Program-made: the position numbers and the translations under genes
Shown here: positions 48,133 through 64,000 of the stretch, in pieces
Numbering within the stretch: position 1 is the first letter of the stretch
How the letters are laid out: each line of letters begins with the position of its first letter
DNA from: an uncultured Holophagaceae bacterium
GTDB lineage: Bacteria > Acidobacteriota > Holophagae > Holophagales > Holophagaceae
DNA: 64,000 nucleotides
Reading direction: 5' to 3'
Assembly (NCBI GenBank): GCA_903913215.1
Contig: CAIWKE010000011.1
Span: 124,001-188,000 of the forward strand
The notes under the pieces: model-generated
What the model was told of the DNA's origin: nothing
The model's database searches: none
What the model saw: only the letters and a program-made list of their open reading frames with translations

Positions 48133-50286
48133 TCACATTTCGGTGGCGATGACCCGCAGGCCCTCCAAGGCTTCTTCCATGGTGAGGAAGAGGGGCAGGC
48201 CCGCGTCGCGCAGGCCCTGGCGGTAATCGTCGTAGAGGGGACCGCCCTCCACGGCCACGCCCACCCACTTGCCGCTGCTCAGGGCCAGGGTCTTCAGGGC
48301 CGAGGCGAAGGCGCCATAGGCTTCGGGGTTCACGGTGTCCAGGCGCTTGGTGAGGGGCACCAGGCCCACCACCACCACATCCGCCTCGGTGCCCAGCAGC
48401 AGTTCCACGGCGGCCAGGTAGGCGGCCTCATCGGCCATGGGGGTGAGGTCCAGGGGCAGGCGAGCGCTGACCAGGCCGGTGAGCTGGTGGGCCGCGATGG
48501 TGGCCGTGAGGGCAGCGGTCTCGGCCTCGCTGAGCCGTGAGCCCCGGAAGGGCCCCGTGAGCAGGTCCGCCGAGGCCACGGACTCAAAGCCCGCATTGGT
48601 CATGATGGCCACGGCCTGGGGTCGGCCCTTGGGGTAGGCCCCCAGCCAGGCCAAAGCGGCGTCGAAGGCCTCGATGCGCTCGGCCAGCAGGACGCCCGCA
48701 CGTCGCAGCAGGCTGGCCTGGAGGGCATGGTCCCCGGCCAGGGCGCCGGTGTGGCTGCTGGCGGCGGCCATGCCTTCCTGGCTGCGGCCCCCCTTATAGA
48801 GGAGGACCCGGCGCCCGGTGGCGCACAGATCCCTGGCGGCCTGGGCCGTGGCCTGCAGGTCCCCGGGAGCGAAGCCCTCCAGGTAGGCGCCCACCACCTG
48901 CACGGCCGGATCCGAGCCGAAGCCCCACAGGAAGTCCGAGCAGCGCAGGTCCATCTGGTTGCCAATGGCCACGGCGGCCCGCAGACCCAGCTCTGTGCGG
49001 CGGCTCAGGCGGGTGATGAGGAAGGCGCCGCTCTGGCTCAACAGGGCCACGTGGCCGGGCTTGGCGCGGAGGGGCAGCTTCTCCTCGGGGATGAAGAGCG
49101 TGTTGAGGCCCAGGTCGGGGCTGAAGAGGCCGAGGCCGTTGGGCCCCACCAAGGCGGGCGTCCACTGGCCCGCTCGCCGGTGCTGCTCCAGGCAGGCCAC
49201 CAGGCGCTGACCCAGGCCTTCTGTGTCGGCGCCATCGCCTAGGCCGCCGGCCACCAGGTAGACCACCGTGGCGCCGCCACCCTGGCGGCAGAGCTGCTCT
49301 ACGGCCTCCAGGGTCTGGGGGGCGGGCAGGGAGAGGATGAGCTGGTCCGTGGGTGCCGCGGCGAGTTGGGCCACGGAGTCCAGGCAGGGCAGGCCCAGGA
49401 ATTCCGTGCTGCCAGGCTTGATGAGGCGCAGGGCGCCGCTCGGCAGCTGCGAGGTCTGGATGTTCTCAAGGATGATGCGGCCCACGGTGCCCGGGCGGCT
49501 GGAGACCCCGGCCAGAACGAGGCTGCGTGGGCTCAGCAGCGCCTGGTACCAGGTGGGATCCGGTGGAAAGACAGCCGGGGACTGGGCGCCGCCCAGCGTG
49601 CCCACGCCATCCAGGGCTGTGGGCAGGCCCTCACTATCCAGTACCACGGGGTTCAGCTCCAGCAACGTGACCCCCTCGGCTTCCAGGGCGGCTACGGCGC
49701 GCCAGAGCCCCTGGAGGAAGGTCAGGAGCTTCGCTTCGTCCGTGAGGGCCGTGGTGCCCCGCTGGCGGCCCAGCCAGGTGCGACCCAGCCAGTGCTCACG
49801 CAGCTCCGCCAGGGCCTGCTCCGGGGTCGTGAAGGCGATGGGCCAGAGCAGCGGCGGAGCCAAGGCCGCCCAGGCGTCTGCCTGGAGGCCGCCGATGCCG
49901 CAGACCGCGAGCCAGCCGCCGTCAGGATCCCGCTTGAGGGACACGAGGGCCTCCGTGGGTAGGCCAGACAGCTTCTGGAAGGCGACCTTCTCGCAGACCA
50001 GGCCGCCAATCCAGGGATGCTCAGGCACCCGGGTCTGCATGGCGGCGGCCTCCGCTTCCAGGGCCGCCCGGTCGAAGGGGCCGAAGTGAACGGCGCCGCG
50101 ATCGGACTTGTGCCAGAGCTGGTCCGCGATGCCCTTGAGGACGATGGGCTCACCAGGGCTGAAGGGGAGCGGGCCTTTGCCCCGAAGCTCACCGTCGATG
50201 AATCCGTGGCGGGGCACCCGCAGGCCTGCGGCGGCGAGCAGGCCGTAGGCCCGCCCCTCGTGGAGGAATCCAGAGGCGCTCTGCAT
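48133..50286 (-). CDS. Acyl-CoA synthetase (ADP-forming), fused subunits in beta-alpha order
   Basis: 717 residues from ATG 50286. Residues 1-230 are an ATP-grasp domain (IVLKGIADQLWHKSD), then CoA-binding (LVLAGVSSRPGTVGRIILENI) and succinyl-CoA-ligase-like domains, with the catalytic His in SSHTGALAGDHAL. It converts an acyl-CoA with ADP and Pi to acid, CoA and ATP. The order here (ATP-grasp first) is the reverse of the common alpha-then-beta fusion. It starts one base after the iorB stop, so it likely uses the aryl-acetyl-CoA made by IorAB. Confidence 0.88.
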   Translation of the reverse strand: MQSASGFLHEGRAYGLLAAAGLRVPRHGFIDGELRGKGPLPFSPGEPIVLKGIADQLWHKSDRGAVHFGPFDRAALEAEAAAMQTRVPEHPWIGGLVCEKVAFQKLSGLPTEALVSLKRDPDGGWLAVCGIGGLQADAWAALAPPLLWPIAFTTPEQALAELREHWLGRTWLGRQRGTTALTDEAKLLTFLQGLWRAVAALEAEGVTLLELNPVVLDSEGLPTALDGVGTLGGAQSPAVFPPDPTWYQALLSPRSLVLAGVSSRPGTVGRIILENIQTSQLPSGALRLIKPGSTEFLGLPCLDSVAQLAAAPTDQLILSLPAPQTLEAVEQLCRQGGGATVVYLVAGGLGDGADTEGLGQRLVACLEQHRRAGQWTPALVGPNGLGLFSPDLGLNTLFIPEEKLPLRAKPGHVALLSQSGAFLITRLSRRTELGLRAAVAIGNQMDLRCSDFLWGFGSDPAVQVVGAYLEGFAPGDLQATAQAARDLCATGRRVLLYKGGRSQEGMAAASSHTGALAGDHALQASLLRRAGVLLAERIEAFDAALAWLGAYPKGRPQAVAIMTNAGFESVASADLLTGPFRGSRLSEAETAALTATIAAHQLTGLVSARLPLDLTPMADEAAYLAAVELLLGTEADVVVVGLVPLTKRLDTVNPEAYGAFASALKTLALSSGKWVGVAVEGGPLYDDYRQGLRDAGLPLFLTMEEALEGLRVIATEM

Positions 50287-50287
50287 G

Positions 50288-50887
50288 TCAGACTCCCACA
50301 GTGGCCTGGACCAGGCCCTGCCCGGCCTCGAAGGCCTCGATGTTCTTTTCGATGACGCGCTGGCCCTTGGCCTCGAAGCGCTGGGTGATGACTTCGCGCC
50401 AGATGCCATCGGCCACAGGCAGGAACCTGGAGGCCATACCCAGGAGGGCCATGCCGCCCGCCTGCTTGTGGCTGAGGCGCCGGGCCAGGTCCTCGGTGTC
50501 CACCAGGTGGCAGCCGCGCACGGCCTTCAGGGCCCCGTAGACCTGTTCCAGGGGGGGGTAGCCCTCCATGTCGCTCTGGGGCTCTTCCGAGACCACCAGG
50601 TGGCCGTTCATCTTGAGCATGGCCACGTAGCGCAGGGCCTCCAGGGGCTCCAGGGCGATGAGCAGGTCGGCGCAGCCTTCGTCGATGATGGGGGAGCTCA
50701 GGGGCACCTCGGCGAAGCAGACCATGGCGTGGACGCTGCCGCCCCGCTGGCTCATGCCGTGGATCTCGGATTGCAGGGCGTGGAAGCCGCTGCGGCGGAG
50801 GGCCTCCAGGACGATCTGGGCCAGGGAGAGGACACCCTGGCCGCCCACGCCGCAGAGGACGATGCCGTGAATGCGGGCTGAGGTCAT
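50288..50887 (-). CDS. iorB: Indolepyruvate:ferredoxin oxidoreductase, beta subunit
   Basis: 199 residues, gamma-domain family (POR_N type). IVLCGVGGQGVLSLAQIV and the EIHGMSQRGGSVHAMVCF block are diagnostic of IorB. With IorA it oxidises arylpyruvates to arylacetyl-CoA, CO2 and reduced ferredoxin. ATG overlaps the iorA stop (ATGA). Confidence 0.93.
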   Translation of the reverse strand: MTSARIHGIVLCGVGGQGVLSLAQIVLEALRRSGFHALQSEIHGMSQRGGSVHAMVCFAEVPLSSPIIDEGCADLLIALEPLEALRYVAMLKMNGHLVVSEEPQSDMEGYPPLEQVYGALKAVRGCHLVDTEDLARRLSHKQAGGMALLGMASRFLPVADGIWREVITQRFEAKGQRVIEKNIEAFEAGQGLVQATVGV

Positions 50888-52545
50888 GAGTGGCTCTCCT
50901 GGCAGGCGGCCAGCGCGGTGCAGGCCTTCAATTCACGGTCGTGGTCCCGGAGCACGCCGCGGCGCAGGGATTGGATGCACTCGCGCCGGAAGACCAGCAC
51001 GGAGGGGCCCGGGTGCCGCAGGGCGGCCTCCAGGGCCTGGACATTGGCCTCGTGCTGCCGGGGCAGGGGGGTGAGCACCTGGAGCTGGGCTTCGGGGATG
51101 CCCAGACCAAGCACCATGCGCTCCACCTGGTCCAGGGCCATGCTGGGCTGCTGGCCGGTCATGCCCACCACCCGGTTGTCCAGGATGAGGACGGTGACGT
51201 TGGCGCCGGAGGCCGCAGCCGTGAGCAGGGCGGGCATGCCGCTGTGGCCGAAGGTGGAGTCCCCGATGACGGCCACGGAGGGGGACTGGCCCGCCAGGGC
51301 GGCGCCCGCGGCCATGCTGATGCTGGCGCCCATCTCCACCACCGCATGGATGGCGTTCATGGGCTCCTGGGCCGCCAGGGTGTAGCAGCCGATATCACCG
51401 AAGACGCGGGCGTCCGCAGCGCCCACGTTCTTGAGCGCCTCACGCAGGGCCTCAAAGGCGTCCGTGTGGCCGCAACCCTCGCAAAGGCGGGGCGCACGCA
51501 GGGGCAGTTGCAGGTCCGAGGCGGCTTTGGCCTCGGCGGTCTTGAGGCCCAGGGCCTTCTTCAGGAGGCGGGGCGTCAGTTCGCCGGTGCGGGGCAGGGC
51601 CCCGTCCAGCTTGCCGTGGATGGCGACGTTGCCGCGCAGGAAGGTCAGCCGCTCCTCCAGGACCGGGTAGGCCTCCTCGAAGACGAAGATTTCGTCCACC
51701 TGGGCCAGGAGGTCCTTCTCCAGAGAGGGCTCCATGGGATAGGCGGCGATCTCCAGGCGGGGAAGGCTGAGTAGTTCCGGGTATTCCAGGCTCAGCTGCT
51801 CGAAGTAGGCGCGGCCCATGCCCGCCAGGGCCACGCCCCGGCGCGAGGTGCCCGGGATAAGGCGGTTCAGGGGGGCCACCTGCTGGGCCATGAGGGGCAG
51901 CTTGGCCAGGAGGTCCAGGTAGCGGCGGCGAGCGTTGGACGGGATGAGCACCCAGTCCTGGATGGTGTCCTGGGGCGCGACGCCCAGGCCAGTGGGGGTC
52001 AGCACATCCCGGCGGGCCATGAGGCCGCGGCAGTGGGCCAGGCGGGTGACCACGCGGATCATGACGGGAACCTGGAGGCTCTCGGAGAGATCGAAGGCCC
52101 GCCAGGTGAAGTCGTAGCATTCCTGGACGGTGCTGGGCTCCAGCACCGGCAGCCAGGCGAACTTGGCCAGGCGGCGGCTGTCCTGCTCGTTCTGGCTGCT
52201 GTGCATGCCCGGGTCGTCCGCCACCAGGAGGACCAGACCACCCCGAACTCCAGTGAGAGCGGAGTTGGCATAGGCGTCCATGGCCACGTTCAGGCCCACA
52301 TGCTTCATGGTCACCAGGCTGCGCTGCCCGGCGTAGCTCATGCCCAGGGCCAGGTCATAGGCCACCTTCTCATTGGCGGCCCATTGGGCCACCCGGCCCG
52401 TAGGCTCGGCGTGGATCATGGCCTCGACATACTCGAAGCCCTCAGTAGAAGGTGTGCCGGGATACCCGAAGGCCCCCTTGATGCCAGCGTCGAAGGCAGC
52501 ACAACCCACCGCTTCAACGCCCAACGCCAGGCTGGTCTGTGCCAT
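50884..52545 (-). CDS. iorA: Indolepyruvate:ferredoxin oxidoreductase, alpha subunit, without the usual C-terminal ferredoxin domain
   Basis: 553 residues from ATG 52545. Pyrimidine domain (GYPGTPSTEGFEYVEA), then TPP domain (LCEGCGHTDAFEAL, VIGDSTFGHSGMPALL, LDNRVVGMTGQQPS). Typical IorA exceeds 600 residues and ends in two CxxCxxCxxxCP [4Fe-4S] motifs; here the protein ends after RECIQSLRRGVLRDH with scattered Cys and none of those motifs. Electron exit must use another partner, or a separate ferredoxin. First gene of iorA-iorB-ligase; a Crp-type site lies 49 bp upstream. Confidence 0.92.
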   Translation of the reverse strand: MAQTSLALGVEAVGCAAFDAGIKGAFGYPGTPSTEGFEYVEAMIHAEPTGRVAQWAANEKVAYDLALGMSYAGQRSLVTMKHVGLNVAMDAYANSALTGVRGGLVLLVADDPGMHSSQNEQDSRRLAKFAWLPVLEPSTVQECYDFTWRAFDLSESLQVPVMIRVVTRLAHCRGLMARRDVLTPTGLGVAPQDTIQDWVLIPSNARRRYLDLLAKLPLMAQQVAPLNRLIPGTSRRGVALAGMGRAYFEQLSLEYPELLSLPRLEIAAYPMEPSLEKDLLAQVDEIFVFEEAYPVLEERLTFLRGNVAIHGKLDGALPRTGELTPRLLKKALGLKTAEAKAASDLQLPLRAPRLCEGCGHTDAFEALREALKNVGAADARVFGDIGCYTLAAQEPMNAIHAVVEMGASISMAAGAALAGQSPSVAVIGDSTFGHSGMPALLTAAASGANVTVLILDNRVVGMTGQQPSMALDQVERMVLGLGIPEAQLQVLTPLPRQHEANVQALEAALRHPGPSVLVFRRECIQSLRRGVLRDHDRELKACTALAACQESHS

Positions 52546-52593
52546 GCGAATCTCCCACCTTGTCAAGAACAAGGATTATGGTGGGCGCGGTCA

Positions 52594-53053: not shown

Positions 53054-54415
53054 ATGAAACGACACACCCAAGTGGCGGTGCTAGCCACCCTGATGTCAGC
53101 GACAGCCTGGGGCCAGGAGGTCAGCCTGTACGGGACCACCATGGCGCAGATGTGGAAGCAGGAGACGCCGGGCTTCAACAAGGCGACGGCGACCTACACG
53201 CCTGCGACTCAGTTCCTGGGCATCGACGCGACGAGCCTGGGCTCGAGCAACCTGTCGCTGCACCTGGCCGGGTGGGGCAAGACCGACCTCTCCGACGCGA
53301 GTTCCTATGACGGAACGAAGTCGGCGGGCTACCTGAACACGGGCTACCTGCAGTATCAGTTCGCCCAGGCCAATGCCGACATCAAGGCTGGTCGTTTCAC
53401 CATCAACCAGACGACGGGCTGGGAGCAGGTGGACGGCGTGAGCGCGCGGACCGACCTGAAGGGCGGCTTCGCGATTTCGGCCTTTGCCGGCAAGCCAGTG
53501 CTCTACAAGACCGTGGATCTGACCTCGCAGCACAACTACGACTTCCAGCGGGACCTGATTTTCGGATCCCGGCTGAGCTGGCGGAACACGTCCTTCGGCG
53601 AACTGGGCCTGTCCTACCTGCAGGACGGCACGAAGGCGGCCAAGGATCTGACGATCCCCCTGAACGTGGACTACACGCGCAAACAGCTGGGTGTGGACGT
53701 GCTGTTCGCGCCCACCAGCAACTTCGACCTGCGCGGCCGGACGGTGGCGGATGTCCGGAATGAGCGGACCAACGTGGCCGAGCACGACTACACCGCGTCG
53801 GTGAAGCTGGGCAATGGAATCACGCTGTCGGGGAACTTTGCCGAGCGCAACTTCCTCTACTACTTCGCGGGCACCAACCTGCCCTCCCTGTTCCGCCCTG
53901 ACGAGAACGACATGTTCCGCGGCTTCGGCTTCAAGGCAAGCTGGATCACGGCAGCCAATGTCGTGCTGGTGGCCGACTACAAGCACACCCACCGCGAGAG
54001 CTTCGGCGACACGAACCGGGCCGGCGGCGAAGCGCGCTGGGCCTTCAGTGATCGTGCGGTGATGTTCGGCTTCAGCGGGCACGTGGTGAACGCGACGGAC
54101 ACGATGTTCGTGGATCCCGCGAGTCCCTCCAAGAGCCTGAGCCACCGCGAAGGTCGGGGCTGGGTGATGCTGACGAAGGGCAAGTTCTCCTGCAGCCTGG
54201 ACGGGATCCTGCAGCGCTACGACGAGGGTAATCCTTACCTGGCCGGGCTGAAGAGCGTGTATGAAGTGGTGGGTTCCCTGGGCTACCAGGCGAGCACCAA
54301 CGTGAAAGTGTCCGGGGATCTCAGTTACGGCAGCACGCCCGTCGCGAAGCACGAGACGCGCGGATTGCTGCGGGCCGAGTACCGCTTCGGCATGGCTAGC
54401 AAGGGAGGTCGCTAA
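53054..54415 (+). CDS. Outer-membrane beta-barrel (porin) of a porin-cytochrome conduit
   Basis: 453 residues from ATG 53054; the frame is open from 52955 but the signal peptide MKRHTQVAVLATLMSATAWG starts here. The mature protein (QEVSLYGTTMAQMWKQ onward) is made of alternating polar/hydrophobic strands with aromatic ends and closes with LLRAEYRFGMASKGGR; the terminal Phe of classic porins is not exact. It is followed directly by three multiheme genes, with the stop touching the next start (54415 shared), so it is the best candidate for the barrel that lets cytochromes cross the outer membrane. It is shorter than MtrB/PioB. A family name cannot be given from sequence alone. Confidence 0.78.
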   Translation: MKRHTQVAVLATLMSATAWGQEVSLYGTTMAQMWKQETPGFNKATATYTPATQFLGIDATSLGSSNLSLHLAGWGKTDLSDASSYDGTKSAGYLNTGYLQYQFAQANADIKAGRFTINQTTGWEQVDGVSARTDLKGGFAISAFAGKPVLYKTVDLTSQHNYDFQRDLIFGSRLSWRNTSFGELGLSYLQDGTKAAKDLTIPLNVDYTRKQLGVDVLFAPTSNFDLRGRTVADVRNERTNVAEHDYTASVKLGNGITLSGNFAERNFLYYFAGTNLPSLFRPDENDMFRGFGFKASWITAANVVLVADYKHTHRESFGDTNRAGGEARWAFSDRAVMFGFSGHVVNATDTMFVDPASPSKSLSHREGRGWVMLTKGKFSCSLDGILQRYDEGNPYLAGLKSVYEVVGSLGYQASTNVKVSGDLSYGSTPVAKHETRGLLRAEYRFGMASKGGR

Positions 54416-54891
54416 TGGCCCGGAAGACGATTGCACTGAAGGTCCTCGGGATCGTGCTGGGACTTGGCGCGCTGATGGCGTGCAGCCTGGTGTCTCCAGA
54501 GGCGAGCTTCGCCCGGACTCACCCCCAGGAACTGGGCGCTGGGCGTCCGGCCTGCTCGGAATGCCACACGACGGATGTGTCGAAGGGTGCCCTGAAGCCC
54601 TACGCGTCCTTCGACCACACGCCGACCTTCGTCAAGGACCACAAGTTCCAGGCGAACCAGGACGCGAACACCTGTGCCTCCTGCCACGCGCAGTCCTTCT
54701 GTGTGGACTGCCACGGCGGCAAGGTGCCCATGAAGCCCTCGCTGAAGCTGAGCGACCGTCCTGACCGCGAGACGCCGCACCGGGGTGACTTCATGACGCT
54801 GCACCGGATGGAGGGAAAGATGGACCCCTCCAGCTGCTACGCGTGCCACGGGCGTGCGAATAACGACAAGTGCCGCGCGTGCCACCGGTAG
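54415..54891 (+). CDS. Pentaheme c-type cytochrome lipoprotein
   Basis: 158 residues. N-terminal helix ending ALMAC, a lipobox with Cys23. Five CxxCH motifs: CSECH (Cys47), CASCH (87), CVDCH (96), CYACH (141), CRACH (153). It should be a periplasmic-side wire passing electrons to the barrel, in the place of MtrA or OmaB. It starts on the last base of the porin gene's stop (TAATGG), which shows tight coupling. Confidence 0.85.
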   Translation: MARKTIALKVLGIVLGLGALMACSLVSPEASFARTHPQELGAGRPACSECHTTDVSKGALKPYASFDHTPTFVKDHKFQANQDANTCASCHAQSFCVDCHGGKVPMKPSLKLSDRPDRETPHRGDFMTLHRMEGKMDPSSCYACHGRANNDKCRACHR

Positions 54892-54920
54892 GAACCAGAG
54901 AAGACTCGAAGGGGAACATC

Positions 54921-55577
54921 ATGAACAGAACAAAATGGATGGCGGCGAGTTGCTTCGCGATGGTGCTGGCGCTGGTCGGACTCGGCTGTTCGGGCAAGGC
55001 CGGGAGCGCGGTGCCGGTGAGCGCGGTGACGGGTCAGCACCCGACGACGTGGCTGGCGGATCACTGGGCGGACTTCGTGCAGACGCCTGACCAGTGCCGG
55101 ACCTGCCACGGCTCGACCTCGGACCCTGCGTCGACGGGAGGCATCTCGAAGGTGAGCTGCTTCAGCTGCCACACGAAGGGCGTGGAGCATCCCGGGAACT
55201 GGGCGGATGCCGCGCAGCACGGCGCCCTGGGCGCAGAGCTGGCGCCGGTGGCTAACGTGGTGGGCGTGCCCCCCGCGATGGCGGGCTTCGCGCACTGCTC
55301 GAAGTGCCACGGCTCGACCTATGACAACGGCCCGGCCGTGTCCTGCAAGAGCTGCCACACGAAGGCACCGCACCCCGACAAGCCCTGGATCGCCAGCAGC
55401 ACCAAGGCGACCAGCCACGTGAACGCGGCCCTGGGGAATGCGCCTGAGTGCGCCAAGTGCCACACGGCCGGTGCGAACTCGCACATCAAGCCCCTGGTCA
55501 CCCCGCCCGCCGGCACCACCCCTGGCTGCTTCAACAACACCCTCTGCCACGGCATGGGCATTCCCGCTGGCGCCTGA
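54921..55577 (+). CDS. Multiheme c-type cytochrome lipoprotein (five CxxCH plus one CX5CH)
   Basis: 218 residues from ATG 54921 (GAAGGGGAACATC ribosome site); the longer frame from 54870 overlaps the previous gene. Lipobox VGLGC (Cys24). CxxCH at Cys59, 80, 126, 142, 177, and a C-terminal CFNNTLCH at Cys203 that spaces the two Cys by five residues. It resembles Geobacter-type CxxxxCH/CxxCH cytochromes. It lies 29 bp after the pentaheme gene. It could be a second conduit piece or an outer-surface hand-over protein. Confidence 0.85.
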   Translation: MNRTKWMAASCFAMVLALVGLGCSGKAGSAVPVSAVTGQHPTTWLADHWADFVQTPDQCRTCHGSTSDPASTGGISKVSCFSCHTKGVEHPGNWADAAQHGALGAELAPVANVVGVPPAMAGFAHCSKCHGSTYDNGPAVSCKSCHTKAPHPDKPWIASSTKATSHVNAALGNAPECAKCHTAGANSHIKPLVTPPAGTTPGCFNNTLCHGMGIPAGA

Positions 55578-55805
55578 AACAAGTCAGGCCAGGAACCTGG
55601 CGAGCGCCAGGTGAGGCCCGGAGGCGCAACCCCGATCAGCCTCAGCCACGACAACCAATCCCGGCACAAAATTTAAGTGATTGGATGTATCACAGCCAAG
55701 ACCCCAAGGAGGTGCGCTATCGAGAGCCAAGAGATACGCACTGACACCCCCCCGAACCAAATCCCTCAACCCCGCTTCACCACCTCAATTCAAGGAGCAC
55801 GGACC

Positions 55806-58730
55806 ATGAAGCAAAGACCTCTCAAACAGCTCTGCGGGCTCATCGCCACCGCAGCGATCGCGCTCGTGCTGATCGGTTGTAACGGGAAGGCCGGCCAGAA
55901 CGGCATCGACGGCACGAACGGCACCAACGGCACGAACGGGACCAACGGCACCAACGGCACCAATGGTGCTCAGGGCGTCGTCACCCTCAACGCTGCTGCC
56001 CTCACCCCTGACGAGTGGGCTGCCCTGCACCTGACGGGCACCGTCCAGAGCGTGGCCGTTTCCGCCACCTCCGGCAAGCCAGTGGTGAAGTTCACGGTCA
56101 CCGACACCAACGGCATGCCCGTGGTCGGTCTGGCCAAGTTCACCACCAAGGCCGCGACGGACGTGTACACCAAGTACGCCAACTTCGCGTTCACCATCGC
56201 CAAGCTTGTTCCCGGCGCCAACGGCAGCCCCAGCTACTGGGTGAACTACTGCATGAACAGCGTCCCGTCCCAGACGGCCGCTGGCGTTGCGGTGCCTTCC
56301 ATCCCCGGCAAGCCCAGCACCGACAACCAGGGCACCCTGGTCGACAACAACGATGGCACCTACAGCTACACCTTCTACCGCGACATCACCGCCGTCCAGG
56401 CCTTCCTTGATGGCTACACGGGCTACGATGCTGCTGGCCTGGCCACGGGCAAGAACTTCCGCGCCGACCTCGGTGACGTGACCTTCGCTCCCGCCCTGAC
56501 CCACCGCCTGGTGATCCAGCTCGGCGGCAACGCCCGCGGCACCAGCACCAACACCCCTGATGGCTCCAACACCGGCATCCTGGCGGTGCCCATCGGCGGC
56601 CCCACCAACGCCATCTACGACTTCATTCCCGCCACTGGCAAGCCTGTCACCGCCACGGACACCCAGCGCCAGATCGTCGACATAGACGCCTGCAACCGCT
56701 GCCACTCCAAGCTCGGCCCCCACGGTGGCTCGCGCATCGACACCCAGTACTGCGTGATCTGCCACACCGATCAGCGCAAGTACGGCAACGTCGAAGCCAC
56801 CACCACGCCCGTCGTGGCTGGCACCAGCCCCTACGGTGGCTACTCCGGCTCCACCAGCCGCATCAACGGCTTGGCCGCTGGCAACCTGGTGGCCTTCCTG
56901 CACCGCCTGCACATGGGCGAAGAGCTGCAGAAGACCGGCTACAACTACGGTGGCCTGGCCTTCAACGACATCACCTACCCCCAGCACATCGGCAACTGCC
57001 AGATGTGCCACACCGGCACCGCCACTTCGCCTTATGTCCAGGCCCAGGGCGACAACTGGAAGAACGTCCCCAGCCGCCTGGCCTGCGGCGCCTGCCACGA
57101 CAGCGTCAACTTCGTCACCGGCGTCAACCATGGTGATGGCGCCCTCAACGGCGGCCCCCAGCTGGACGACAAGAGCTGCGTGAACTGCCATGCCGCCGGC
57201 GCTGTCGCCGTCGTGCACACCCCCGTGGCCGGTCCTGACCTCACCAACGGCGGCATCCCCACCGCACAGGGTGGCGTCGCTTCCAACACCCACACCAACG
57301 CGTCCTTCGTGGCCGCCGACCTCACCAACCTGCCCGCCGGCGCCCACTGGTTCAAGTGGGACATCAAGTCCGTGTCCGTGGATGCCACGACGCGCCTGCC
57401 CAAGTGGGTCTTCCGCTTCCTGCAGGACGGCACCACCCCCGTGGTCTTCAATACCTGGGTTGCTGCTCAGACCCCCGCGACTGAGATGATGACCGGTTAT
57501 GCCGGCAGCCCCAATCTCTACATGGCCTTCTCGGTTCCCCAGGACGGCATCCTCAAGCCTGCCGACTGGAACTCCAGCGTCAGCATCAACCTCCGCAAAC
57601 TCTGGCGCGGTGGTGCTGCCACCGGTTCCACCCTCACCTATGACGCCACCACTGGCTACTACACGGCCGTCCTCGGCGGTGTCACTGTGCCCGCCAACGC
57701 CACCAACATCACGGGCGGCGTGGGCTACTTCTATGGTGTGGTCGCCGCCGGCACCACCGGTGATGCTGCCACGGATTCCCTGCAGCTCACCCAGACCAAC
57801 CTGGCTGCCTATCCCTTCAACAAGGTCACCCTTGGTGGCGTCAGCACCGCCATTCCCTTCCAGGGCGGCCTCTGCGTTCCCAACCCCAACATGTATATGG
57901 CCGTTGGCAGCACCACCCCCAACGCCTCGCCCCGCCGCGCCATCGTCGCCACTGCCAAGTGCAACGAGTGCCACCTGAACCTGGGTGTCTTCACCGGCAG
58001 CGTCTTCCACGACGGCCAGCGCAACGACGCCCCCACCTGCACCTTCTGCCACAACGTCAACGGCGTGAACTCGGGCTGGGGCTACAACATCAAGGAAGCC
58101 GTGCACTCCATCCACGCCGGCTCCAAGCGCACCACCCCCTACACCTGGCAGGCCGCTCACACCTACTGGGATGTGACCTACCCCGCCATCCTCAACAACT
58201 GCGAAGCCTGCCACGTGGCCGGTTCCTATGACTTCAGCGCCAGCGCCAGCACTTCCGCTGTCCCGAACCTCCTCTGGACGACCATCGCCAGCGGCACCAT
58301 GAGCGCGACCGGCATCAAGCTGACCGATCCCGCCCTCTTCGACGCGACGAAGACCTACATTTCTCCCTTCGTCACGGCCGGTGTGAACTACGGCCAGGGC
58401 CTCCAGGTGAACAGCACGACGGCCATCAAGGCCGCCACCACCTGGAACGGGGTTGTTACCCCGATCGCGATCGGCGGAACGCTCGAGCCCGAGCCGACCT
58501 CCCTCGTGAACTCCCCGATCACCTCTGCTTGCTACGCCTGCCATGACACTGCGATCGCCAAGGCTCACATGCTCGGCAATGGCGGTTCCATCGGTGTGGC
58601 CCGCAGCACCGTCACCACTGCGGTGGCCGGTGTCACCACGGTGCCCATCGTCCAGAACGAGCAGTGCTTGATCTGCCACGGCAATGGCAAGGTTGCGGAC
58701 ATCCGCGCCATGCACATGACCTGGAAGTAA
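55806..58730 (+). CDS. Decaheme OmcA/MtrC-family outer-surface cytochrome lipoprotein
   Basis: 974 residues from ATG 55806; the frame open from 55677 lacks a signal. Lipobox VLIGC (Cys22 region), then a collagen-like Gly-X-Y run (GIDGTNGTNGTN...). Ten CxxCH in two groups of five: Cys296, 316, 398, 427, 458 and Cys719, 745, 799, 909, 954, separated by beta-rich domains, which is the MtrC/OmcA plan (two pentaheme and two split-barrel domains). It would reduce Fe(III), electrodes or shuttles outside the cell. The 228-bp gap before it may hold its own ribosome site (AAGGAGCACGG precedes the ATG) and perhaps a promoter. Confidence 0.92.
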   Translation: MKQRPLKQLCGLIATAAIALVLIGCNGKAGQNGIDGTNGTNGTNGTNGTNGTNGAQGVVTLNAAALTPDEWAALHLTGTVQSVAVSATSGKPVVKFTVTDTNGMPVVGLAKFTTKAATDVYTKYANFAFTIAKLVPGANGSPSYWVNYCMNSVPSQTAAGVAVPSIPGKPSTDNQGTLVDNNDGTYSYTFYRDITAVQAFLDGYTGYDAAGLATGKNFRADLGDVTFAPALTHRLVIQLGGNARGTSTNTPDGSNTGILAVPIGGPTNAIYDFIPATGKPVTATDTQRQIVDIDACNRCHSKLGPHGGSRIDTQYCVICHTDQRKYGNVEATTTPVVAGTSPYGGYSGSTSRINGLAAGNLVAFLHRLHMGEELQKTGYNYGGLAFNDITYPQHIGNCQMCHTGTATSPYVQAQGDNWKNVPSRLACGACHDSVNFVTGVNHGDGALNGGPQLDDKSCVNCHAAGAVAVVHTPVAGPDLTNGGIPTAQGGVASNTHTNASFVAADLTNLPAGAHWFKWDIKSVSVDATTRLPKWVFRFLQDGTTPVVFNTWVAAQTPATEMMTGYAGSPNLYMAFSVPQDGILKPADWNSSVSINLRKLWRGGAATGSTLTYDATTGYYTAVLGGVTVPANATNITGGVGYFYGVVAAGTTGDAATDSLQLTQTNLAAYPFNKVTLGGVSTAIPFQGGLCVPNPNMYMAVGSTTPNASPRRAIVATAKCNECHLNLGVFTGSVFHDGQRNDAPTCTFCHNVNGVNSGWGYNIKEAVHSIHAGSKRTTPYTWQAAHTYWDVTYPAILNNCEACHVAGSYDFSASASTSAVPNLLWTTIASGTMSATGIKLTDPALFDATKTYISPFVTAGVNYGQGLQVNSTTAIKAATTWNGVVTPIAIGGTLEPEPTSLVNSPITSACYACHDTAIAKAHMLGNGGSIGVARSTVTTAVAGVTTVPIVQNEQCLICHGNGKVADIRAMHMTWK
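55875..55970 (+). repeat. Tandem repeat coding Gly-Thr-Asn collagen-like spacer
   Basis: Nine-base units of the type ggcacgaac / ggcaccaac / gggaccaac recur six times or more just after the lipobox codons of the decaheme gene, coding Gly-X-Y triplets. The length may vary by slippage and set the distance of the cytochrome from the membrane. Confidence 0.8.
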
Positions 58731-58890: not shown

Positions 58891-59253
58891 ATGAATAAAA
58901 AATTAGTTAGAATCGCACTGACCGTCGCCTTCGGGCTCATGGTGGCTGGTGGCCTCCGGGCCCAGGATGAGGCGCCTGCCGCACCCAGGAAGCCCATCTC
59001 CAAGGGGGCCCAGGAGGCCAAGGCCAAGAAGGCCGCTGCCAAGGCCAAGGCCAAGGCGGAGGAGCGGGCCAAGGCTCTCAGCCTCAACACGGCCACCAAG
59101 GACCAGCTCAAGCAGCTGCCGGGACTCACCCCGGCCCAGGTGGACGCCATCGTGGCCAAGCGTCCCTACCACTCCAAGGCGGACCTGGTGGTGAAGGGCA
59201 TCATCACCGCGGAACAGTACCGGGCCATCAGCAAGAACATCGCCATCAAGTAG
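58891..59253 (+). CDS. Secreted helix-hairpin-helix protein (ComEA-like)
   Basis: 120 residues. Signal peptide (to GGLRAQ), an Ala/Lys/Glu-rich helical linker, then a ComEA-type double HhH (LSLNTATKDQLKQLPGLTPAQVDAIVAKRPYHSKADLVVKGIITAEQYRAI). ComEA binds DNA in the periplasm for uptake; no other com gene is near, so DNA binding is inferred from the fold. GAGGTAAACC precedes the ATG. A terminator follows. Confidence 0.85.
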   Translation: MNKKLVRIALTVAFGLMVAGGLRAQDEAPAAPRKPISKGAQEAKAKKAAAKAKAKAEERAKALSLNTATKDQLKQLPGLTPAQVDAIVAKRPYHSKADLVVKGIITAEQYRAISKNIAIK

Positions 59254-59280
59254 CCCAGATAGCCCTGAAACTCCGACCTC

Positions 59281-59313
59281 AGGCCCCCGCTCCAGCGGGG
59301 GCCTGACTTTTTT
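59281..59313 (+). terminator. Rho-independent terminator after the HhH gene
   Basis: aggcccccgct / agcgggggcct form an 11-bp stem with a minimal loop, followed by gac and six T. A strong intrinsic terminator. Confidence 0.9.
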
Positions 59314-59338: not shown

Positions 59339-59417
59339 AAGGGTGGTTGACCTAATAGATTACCGGAGCATCTTCATTTATAAGACTTGTTACAGCAGGT
59401 TCTATCAGGGGGATTCC

Positions 59418-59906
59418 ATGCTTCCACTGTCCCAGACCACGGGTTATGCGGTGCGAGCTTTGCGGTGCCTTCAGGAACCGGGCGGCCACCCGATGCTGGT
59501 GGAGGAGGTCGCGGAGTTCACCGGGATCCCCAGATCCTACTTATCCAAGCTGATCCACAAGCTCGCCAAGAAGGGGCTGGTGGTGGCCCGGCGCGGTCAC
59601 CATGGCGGCGTGGTCCTGGCCCGGCCCGCCACGGAGATCACCCTGGAAGACCTCTCCGAGGCCATCGACGGGGTCGCCTGGCGCAAGCGGTGCCTCATGG
59701 GCCTCATGGGCTGCACCTCCGAGAATCCCTGCGTGCTGCACCACTTCTGGGAAGAAACCCTGGAGCAGATCCTGGCCCGGCTCCGCTCTGTGAGTCTGGC
59801 CGACCTGGCCCAGAACTATGACCCGGGTGTAGACCGCTTCCGCGAAAGCCACGGGATGCTCGCCTCGGCTTCGGGCCCGGCCCATTCGGAGATGGTGGAG
59901 CATTAG
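59418..59906 (+). CDS. Rrf2-family regulator, paralogue 1 next to the conduit operon
   Basis: 162 residues from ATG 59418 (AGGGGG ribosome site). HTH: LPLSQTTGYAVRALRCL, GIPRSYLSKLIHKLAKKGLVVARRGHHGGVVLA. Cys ligands for Fe-S: RCLMGLMGCTSENPC. It is close in sequence to the convergent gene at 60071 (both start MLPLSQ and share IHKLAK-GLV and KRG/RRG-GGVVL). It may sense Fe-S, NO or redox state and control the cytochrome genes upstream (inference from place). Confidence 0.9.
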   Translation: MLPLSQTTGYAVRALRCLQEPGGHPMLVEEVAEFTGIPRSYLSKLIHKLAKKGLVVARRGHHGGVVLARPATEITLEDLSEAIDGVAWRKRCLMGLMGCTSENPCVLHHFWEETLEQILARLRSVSLADLAQNYDPGVDRFRESHGMLASASGPAHSEMVEH

Positions 59907-60070: not shown

Positions 60071-60604
60071 CTAGACCTTCTTGACCGCGGGCTTCTTGGC
60101 TGCGGCAGGCTTCTTCGCGGCGGGCTTGGCAGCCTTCTTGACCCGGGGCTTGAGCTTCTTCTCGGGCAGGGCATCGGCGAGACGCCAGGTGCGGCTGTTC
60201 TGCTCGAAGGTGCGGATCTCCTCGAGGGAGATGTCCTTCAGGCATCGGTGGATGTGGTCGCGCTCAGCCTTCCAGAAGGTGTGGGAGGGGCAGGCCCGCT
60301 CGTCCGTGCAGTCCTTGAAACCAAGCAGGCACTGGTTCCGCCACTCGGAGCCGTCCACGGCCTCGGCGATGAGGTCCAGGGTGATCTCCTTGGCCGCCAA
60401 GGACAGCACCACGCCGCCCTTGTTGCCGCGCTTGGCCATCACGAGGCCCACCTTGGCGAGCTTGTGGATCATCTTGGAGAGATAGGGGCGGGGGAAGCCG
60501 GTGCGGGCCGCCACATCCACCACAAGGGTGGGCTTGCCGCCTGGATCTTCAAGGCAGCTCATGGCCAAGACCGCATAACCGGAGGACTGGGACAGTGGGA
60601 GCAT
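60071..60604 (-). CDS. Rrf2-family regulator, paralogue 2, with Lys/Ala/Pro-rich C-terminal tail
   Basis: 177 residues from ATG 60604 (MLPLSQ matches paralogue 1; ATG 60610 is also possible). HTH and Fe-S Cys group (NQCLLGFKDCTDERACPS) like paralogue 1. The last 30 residues are an AlgP/histone-H1-like tail (KKAAKPAAKKPAAAKKPAVKKV), which would bind DNA without sequence preference or bend it. Such a tail on an Rrf2 protein is unusual. Convergent with paralogue 1. Confidence 0.9.
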   Translation of the reverse strand: MLPLSQSSGYAVLAMSCLEDPGGKPTLVVDVAARTGFPRPYLSKMIHKLAKVGLVMAKRGNKGGVVLSLAAKEITLDLIAEAVDGSEWRNQCLLGFKDCTDERACPSHTFWKAERDHIHRCLKDISLEEIRTFEQNSRTWRLADALPEKKLKPRVKKAAKPAAKKPAAAKKPAVKKV

Positions 60605-60699
60605 GGTCACCTGCGTTGAAATGGGGGGATTGGACGTTCCAAATAATAGACGATCTTGAGGTCAAACACACCCAAAGAGTCGGAAATTGGATAATTTAA

Positions 60700-60744: not shown

Positions 60745-61737
60745 TCAGGGCTTCCAGCCGTTCAGGATTCGCATGTAGTTCGCGCGGGTGAAGGCCTGGG
60801 GGTTCGGAGACTTCAGCAGGCTCATGCTGCCCCGGGCCTGGGCCAGGGATTCGTACTCGTGCTCTTCCAGCCACTCGGCCATGGTGGTGCGGGCCTGGGC
60901 CAGGCGCTCGGGGCCGTGGATGAGGAGGGCGGAGACCATCTGCACGGCGTCTGCACCGGCCATGACGGCCTTGAGGGCGCCGATGCCGTCGTGGACACCA
61001 CCGGTGACCGCGAGGCTGCCCTTGACGTGTCCGTGAAGCACCGCGAGCCAGCGCAGGCGCAGGAGCAGGTCCGAGGGGCTGGAGAGTTGGAGGGTGGGCT
61101 CGGCCAGCAGGTCCTCGATGTTGATGTCGGGCTGGAAGAAGCGGTTGAAGAGCACGAGGCCGTCGGCGCCCGCCGCTTCCAGTTCCACGGCGAAGTGGGC
61201 CAGGGCGGAGAAGAAGGGCGAGAGCTTCACGGACACGGGGATCGACACTTCAGTCTTCACGGCCTTCACGATGTCGAGGGTGCGCTTCTCGACGTCGGCG
61301 GTGCTCTCTTTGGCATCTGTGGGGATGTAGTAGACGTTGAGTTCCAGCGCGTCGGCGCCGGCGTCCTGCATGAGCTTGCCGTGGTGCAGCCAGCCTGCGG
61401 GGGTGATGCCGTTGAGGGAGGCGATGACGGGGACGGAGACAGCCGCCTTCACCCGCTGGATCTGCTCCAGGTACTTCTCGGGGCCGAGGCGGAACTCGTC
61501 GGGCTTGGGGAAGTAGGAGATGGCCTCGGCACTGTTATGCGCATGCAGCTCCATGTCCATGATGGTGCCCAGCTCTTCGCGGGTGATCTGCTCTTCGAAG
61601 AGGGAGTGCATCACGATGGCGGAGGCGCCAGCGTCTTCAAGGCGCTTGACCATGCCCATGTCATCGACCATGGGCGAGGCGCCCGCAATCAGGGGGTGGG
61701 CGAGCTGGAGGCCGAGGTAGGTGGTTGAGAGGTTCAT
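60745..61737 (-). CDS. Dihydroorotate-dehydrogenase-like flavoprotein
   Basis: 330 residues, FMN TIM barrel. NLSTTYLGLQLAHPLIAGASP at the start, then VIASLNGITPAGW, ALELNVYYIP, VSVKLSPFFSALAHFA and VTGGVHDGIGALKAVMAGADAVQMVSALL, the FMN-phosphate loop. It lacks the C-terminal [4Fe-4S] domain of dihydropyrimidine dehydrogenases. It is often found beside nifJ, as here (17 bp between the genes), so it may use ferredoxin-linked electrons; the true substrate is open. Confidence 0.85.
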   Translation of the reverse strand: MNLSTTYLGLQLAHPLIAGASPMVDDMGMVKRLEDAGASAIVMHSLFEEQITREELGTIMDMELHAHNSAEAISYFPKPDEFRLGPEKYLEQIQRVKAAVSVPVIASLNGITPAGWLHHGKLMQDAGADALELNVYYIPTDAKESTADVEKRTLDIVKAVKTEVSIPVSVKLSPFFSALAHFAVELEAAGADGLVLFNRFFQPDINIEDLLAEPTLQLSSPSDLLLRLRWLAVLHGHVKGSLAVTGGVHDGIGALKAVMAGADAVQMVSALLIHGPERLAQARTTMAEWLEEHEYESLAQARGSMSLLKSPNPQAFTRANYMRILNGWKP

Positions 61738-61753
61738 GGAGTCACCCGTCCCT

Positions 61754-64000
<2,247 letters not shown>

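Follow-up and report, generated by a model that had tools for sequence, protein, structure and literature searches.

Genes and features of the locus

The window, a stretch of 64 000 nucleotides from an uncultured Holophagaceae bacterium, carries four genes on its forward strand between positions 53054 and 58730, named here barrel, c5, c6 and c10. The order barrel, pentaheme, five-plus-one-heme and decaheme protein had been read in a preliminary description of this DNA and was confirmed by coordinates, heme motifs and lipoboxes. The features of the locus are listed below.

53054–54415, + strand: barrel, 453 aa, with a signal peptide and without CxxCH; ATG at 53054 to stop at 54415
54415–54891, + strand: c5, pentaheme lipoprotein cytochrome, 158 aa, five CxxCH; lipobox LMAC23
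54921–55577, + strand: c6, predicted hexaheme lipoprotein cytochrome, 218 aa, five CxxCH and one terminal CX5CH (CFNNTLCH); lipobox LGLGC23
55806–58730, + strand: c10, OmcA/MtrC-family decaheme lipoprotein, 974 aa, ten CxxCH; lipobox LIGC25, followed by a GTNGTNG linker
58891–59253, + strand: small exported helix-hairpin-helix (HhH, ComEA-like) protein; PF12836, 31.8 bits, cut-off 27
59279–59306, + strand: intrinsic-terminator-like hairpin of 12 pairs followed by a T run, closing the gene set
59412–59906, + strand: Rrf2-family regulator, possibly redox or iron-sulfur sensing; PF02082, 107.3 bits
60071–60610, − strand: second Rrf2-family regulator, convergent with that at 59412–59906

The ATG of c5 at 54415 starts on the last base of the barrel TAA (54413–54415), confirming the one-base overlap already reported for the first two genes, and this overlap was kept in all 13 of the relatives checked. 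A hydrophobic N-terminal stretch with a cysteine lipobox was present in all three cytochromes. Given the composition of the window's ordinary proteins, ∼0.0002 CxxCH motifs would be expected by chance per 158 aa, against the five found in c5. The NrfB-like family PF22678 had no match at the locus.

The source genome (3.9 Mb in 41 contigs, 95% complete) is by sequence kinship a Geothrix, as the relatives of the barrel at ∼69–71% identity come from named species of Geothrix, G. fermentans DSM 14018 (L009) among them, and the genomes closest in kinship are of the same genus. The acidobacterial setting suggested previously was thereby borne out.

Occurrence and conservation among Holophagaceae

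A barrel profile was searched across 297 Acidobacteriota genomes, and a broader barrel profile across 396 genomes representing 210 genera. The barrel was detected in 24 of the 297 genomes, all from one family, which by its named members is Holophagaceae; the broader profile matched 33 of the 396 genomes (8 of the 210 genera), again only Holophagaceae, with no match outside the family among these Acidobacteriota. c5 was found in the same 24 genomes, plus one distant match, and was accompanied by c6. Direct reading of Geothrix loci and of loci from several other Holophagaceae genera gave the order barrel, c5, c6, decaheme, and the gene-order comparison that had been proposed found barrel, c5 and c6 staying together within the family. 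Two Geothrix genomes (G040 and G244) seemingly lacked barrel and c5; loss of these genes was rejected, as the contigs begin inside c6 (first match at contig bases 2–6), just before the decaheme gene, very probably through an assembly break. No relative of c5, barrel or c10 turned up in searches of viral contigs and plasmids.

A distant c5-like pentaheme protein is encoded elsewhere in the phylum (L066, 9393–9908, − strand), beside an RnfC-like gene; the locus lacks a barrel of this family. There the same plan of a small pentaheme apparently works with an inner-membrane complex, and c5 alone is therefore not a marker of a conduit.

Conservation was compared on the mature proteins in 136 species pairs, and c5 was the most conserved of the four. 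Mean pairwise identity was 73.6% for c5, 65.3% for barrel, 62.3% for c6 and 57.1% for c10. Identity was higher in c5 than in barrel in 134 of 136 pairs (105 when shared C/H columns were left out), while the step from c6 to c10 was weak (94 of 136 pairs, and 63 of 136 without C/H columns). This gradient fits c5 as the most buried part, which is no proof of its position. The outermost lipoproteins are also the parts most often replaced in Geobacter conduits (PMC6148476).

The four proteins and a proposed exchangeable surface cytochrome

The barrel had no Pfam, NCBIfam or PDB sequence match, and a search of PDB sequences with the barrel profile returned nothing significant. An AlphaFold2 model built on 14 sequences had ∼21–22 strands (mean pLDDT 63, pTM 0.59), and the description of the barrel as a shorter one was upheld at 453 aa and with this number of strands in a medium-confidence model. 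The fold matches were ushers, OprD-type porins and TonB-dependent receptors, all at Z ∼15–17; MtrB was absent among the matches listed, which excludes nothing. The model supports an outer-membrane beta-barrel and fits a cytochrome sheath and a solute porin alike, leaning neither towards nor away from the substrate-specific porin that had been named beforehand as refuting a conduit. If the barrel were an ordinary solute porin that lies beside surface cytochromes by chance, the OprD-type matches (Z ∼16–17) would be in keeping with it, but ushers and TonB-receptor barrels match at about equal Z, barrel and c5 occur in exactly the same genomes of the family, and a second barrel copy in relatives again comes with c5 and a c6 domain; a solute porin is thus considered highly improbable. 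The barrel is instead proposed to be the sheath of a conduit. TonB-receptor barrels hold their plugs inside, and by analogy a barrel of ∼21–22 strands could be roomy enough for a domain of the size of c5.

The five CxxCH motifs and five free histidines of c5 were invariant throughout 23 sequences from several genera. The c5 profile gave nothing significant against PDB sequences; a weak match to MtrC (E 0.03) covered residues 203–309, the first pentaheme domain of MtrC. The AlphaFold model of c5 was poor (pLDDT 45), and no fold was assigned. c5 is proposed to be a wire inside the barrel or at its inner face. It might alternatively lie outside the barrel as a periplasm-facing docking lipoprotein, with the pore filled by a cytochrome encoded elsewhere, and clusters of that kind are known (extBCD without a nearby extA). 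The one-base overlap, the strict inheritance of barrel and c5 together and their joint presence in the paralogous cluster favour a tight pair, and the docking arrangement is regarded as rather unlikely.

c10 matched the OmcA/MtrC decaheme profile TIGR03507 at 446.9 bits (cut-off 209.3), over profile positions 2–672 of 672, and PF22113 at 162.5 bits; the nearest solved structure was MtrF (3pmq, E 3.7e-21). With a profile score above the curated cut-off, ten CxxCH motifs and an N-terminal lipobox, c10 fits the OmcA/MtrC family, so the identity first proposed for it was borne out. It is the sole OmcA/MtrC protein of the source genome, and is proposed to be the surface terminal reductase.

The CX5CH site of c6 was present in 23 of 23 sequences. 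Five of the free histidines in c6 were conserved throughout the 23 sequences and a sixth in 21 of them; the motif histidines likewise number six if CX5CH is counted. Bis-histidine multiheme proteins need one distal histidine per heme. Six conserved free histidines for six motifs argue that the CX5CH of c6 carries a heme, and on this pattern the site probably binds one. The c6 domain of the paralogous fusion proteins has CX4CH in place of CX2CH at its second site, so that motif spacing varies in this domain. A PDB sequence search with the c6 profile gave no match. Heme binding by CXnCH spacings above four was stated to be undetermined in PMC4245776; c6, having exactly one such site and one conserved free histidine to match it, would offer a clean test of CX5CH heme binding.

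The c6 module also forms the N-terminal domain of long multiheme lipoproteins, both in the source genome and in related genomes. In the source genome such a lipoprotein (L071) has 22 CxxCH motifs, and its N-terminal c6 domain scores 112 bits against the c6 profile. Two Geothrix genomes carry a second, diverged barrel–c5 pair (42% barrel identity), and this pair is followed by a protein of ∼1166 residues with 25 CxxCH, four CX4CH and one CX5CH and an N-terminal c6 domain. At another locus (L090) two c6 domains in a single frame come after the core, and upstream of the barrel there is a ten-heme gene of a different kind. Since the c6 domain is found joined to long multiheme lipoproteins, free c6 is suggested to link the membrane part to the tip, and it is proposed as the linker from c5 to the surface cytochrome. 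Relatives have up to eight OmcA/MtrC matches, several of them in tandem behind the core. Barrel, c5 and c6 thus form a fixed core and the proposed surface cytochrome is exchangeable, a pattern which sets a membrane-crossing part apart from one in contact with the acceptor.

Other large multiheme proteins were observed. The L071 region (contig C41, 36000–54000) of the source genome has, besides the gene of the 22-CxxCH lipoprotein, genes for a monoheme cytochrome, a small protein of ∼300 aa that resembles a barrel and a membrane protein containing a single CxxCH; this is a putative second outer-membrane redox set, which recurs at L083, L085, L086 and L088. A protein of 2078 residues that begins with a c6 domain (L084, 4060–10296, − strand) has 40 CxxCH, seven CX4CH and one CX5CH. 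In another acidobacterial family a protein of 1255 residues (L089, 6200–9967, + strand) has 51 CxxCH in very dense heme packing, and is followed by a protein of 442 aa.

Relation to known conduits and the proposed electron route

The four genes are considered highly likely to encode a porin-cytochrome electron conduit across the outer membrane, which very probably would form a wire of ∼21 hemes delivering electrons to metals or other acceptors outside a cell living in soil or sediment. Taken as a prediction from genes, the earlier suggestion that the set works as one trans-membrane wire is well supported by comparison, through conserved gene order, co-occurrence, the fixed core with its replaceable tip, the full complement of axial histidines and matching cytochromes of the inner membrane and periplasm encoded elsewhere in the genome. 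An outer-membrane beta-barrel and a multiheme periplasmic cytochrome are among the three elements by which conduit clusters have been defined (PMC6148476). The barrel element is present at the locus, as judged by the model and its fold matches; as both small cytochromes carry a lipobox, there is no clearly soluble periplasmic component.

As in MtrCAB of Shewanella, a decaheme lipoprotein of OmcA/MtrC type (TIGR03507), proposed for the surface, is encoded next to an outer-membrane barrel, but the barrel here has 453 aa and ∼21–22 strands, and c10 lacks the CX8C disulfide motif, having just two cysteines outside its heme sites, signal peptide and lipobox. In Shewanella-type MtrC this motif lies in domain III and goes with a flavin/oxygen switch (PMC9973256). 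MtrB_PioB (PF11854) had no match in the whole source genome and no MtrA-like periplasmic decaheme was present at the locus, the sole decaheme between 52.9 and 60.7 kb being the lipoprotein c10. The set is therefore not MtrCAB, and the absence of an MtrA-like decaheme noted in the preliminary description holds for the locus. OmbB-OmaB-OmcB of Geobacter (Pcc; PMC4245776) resembles the set in combining a smaller class of barrel (18–22 predicted strands) with cytochromes, but the locus has neither an octaheme periplasmic nor a dodecaheme outer cytochrome, and both small cytochromes carry a lipobox. A precedent for the pairing of five with six hemes is found in the Pcc of Geobacter sp. M18, which has a 5-heme and a 6-heme protein with atypical CXnCH motifs (PMC4245776).

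In gene layout, the nearest published system is extBCD/extEFG of Geobacter, in which the barrel gene is likewise followed directly by a pentaheme lipoprotein gene (PMC6148476). The preliminary likening to MtrCAB and OmbB-OmaB-OmcB with different components was incomplete in not naming this nearer layout. ExtB and ExtE are predicted to have 18 and 21 strands (PMC6148476), compared with ∼21–22 in the barrel model (mean pLDDT 63), and in the ext clusters too the outer lipoprotein is often exchanged between species. The locus differs in having no dodecaheme ExtA or ExtG and no ExtD, and in having a hexaheme lipoprotein and an OmcA/MtrC decaheme; some extBCD loci are also without extA nearby (PMC6148476).

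The set could on these grounds be a direct member of the ExtB/ExtE family, in which c5 would be ExtC or ExtF and replacement would be limited to the outer part; this would bear on its lineage and be compatible with conduit function. The shared order of barrel and pentaheme lipoprotein, the predicted strand numbers and the frequent replacement of outer lipoproteins in ext clusters are in favour, as are the reports of an ExtB/E-family complex in Holophaga (PMC7399161) and of extEFG homologs expressed in Holophaga (PMC11748539); the lack of a dodecaheme ExtA- or ExtG-like gene at the locus counts against membership, and the balance is judged to be even. Somewhat more tentatively, the set may represent a separate porin-cytochrome lineage, in which a pentaheme and a hexaheme lipoprotein would jointly take the place of the single periplasmic cytochrome and form the trans-membrane wire. 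The hexaheme protein would then use a CX5CH heme site and serve as a reusable adaptor, free where the tip is of MtrC type and fused where the tip is a very long multiheme protein.

Putative conduits have been reported in this family, and the existence of such conduits is thus not new. The reports describe a putative ExtB/E-family complex in a Holophaga metagenome bin (PMC7399161), putative OmbB-type and unassigned porin-cytochrome complexes in Geothrix metagenome bins (PMC6344600) and extEFG homologs expressed by a Holophaga (PMC11748539). These complexes are from the same bacterial family and may well comprise the cluster described here. The texts of the three papers neither set out the four-gene anatomy nor read c6 as a hexaheme protein nor compare core and tip; relative to them, these and the reusable c6 module are what is added here.

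Further multiheme proteins of the source genome could feed the conduit, judging from what is known of their families. Two neighbouring genes (L067, 4270–8398, − strand) encode multiheme proteins with fused cytochrome b561-type domains; these proteins resemble CbcL in general type and are candidate menaquinol oxidases for extracellular electron transfer. The genome also encodes a multiheme membrane protein of NapC/NirT-like kind (L068) and, at L069 and L070, CctA-like tetraheme proteins. In the proposed route, menaquinol would be oxidised at the inner membrane by the CbcL-like or NapC/NirT-like proteins encoded elsewhere, and CctA-like tetraheme cytochromes would ferry the electrons over the periplasm. 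The electrons would enter c5, held in or under the barrel, and pass through c6 to c10 on the surface, which would reduce Fe(III), Mn(IV), humics, electrodes or shuttles.

The conduit might instead run mainly inward, in Fe(II) or electrode oxidation, or serve a different partner, for example a redox shuttle or another cell. The related conduits Mto and Pio have been proposed for Fe(II) oxidation (PMC6344600), and Geothrix secretes redox-active compounds (Mehta-Kolte and Bond, 2012, as cited in PMC8258643). Against inward flow, Geothrix is a known Fe(III) reducer, its entry among Trout Bog MAGs lists reductive and no oxidative extracellular electron transfer genes (PMC12285243), and OmcA/MtrC-type tips are typical of reducers; these alternatives are held to be improbable. 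G. fermentans has the cluster, and its ability to reduce Fe(III) is proven (Coates, 1999, as cited in PMC8841776), in agreement with the outward route preferred here.

The locus is an obvious target for knock-out, being the only OmcA/MtrC-bearing site in the genome and kept across the family. Among acidobacteria, Geothrix is the classic iron reducer, known from aquifers, bogs and anode communities. A worked-out outer-membrane electron route for this genus was not found in the literature surveyed.

The conserved exported HhH gene and the terminator-like hairpin behind it had been missed previously. Other Holophagaceae also have the HhH gene, and it was found in the same position behind the decaheme gene at L037, L038, L039, L043 and L044; an HhH gene also lies beside mtrC in betaproteobacteria (PMC8805035), so that the pairing of HhH and decaheme genes recurs in a distant group. 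The hairpin has by far the longest stem found, terminator-like matches as a class being no more frequent than the shuffled expectation. The Rrf2-family gene at 59412–59906 occupies the same position at L043 and L044, and the convergent pair that it forms beside the conduit with 60071–60610 is present at both; redox or iron-sulfur control of the set by this pair is possible. The set is flanked on one side (48133–52572, − strand) by acyl-CoA synthetase-like and IorA/IorB-like oxidoreductase genes and on the other (60745–64000, − strand) by a pyruvate:ferredoxin-oxidoreductase-like gene, all named by eye, and the same flanking genes, again named by eye, were seen at L090.
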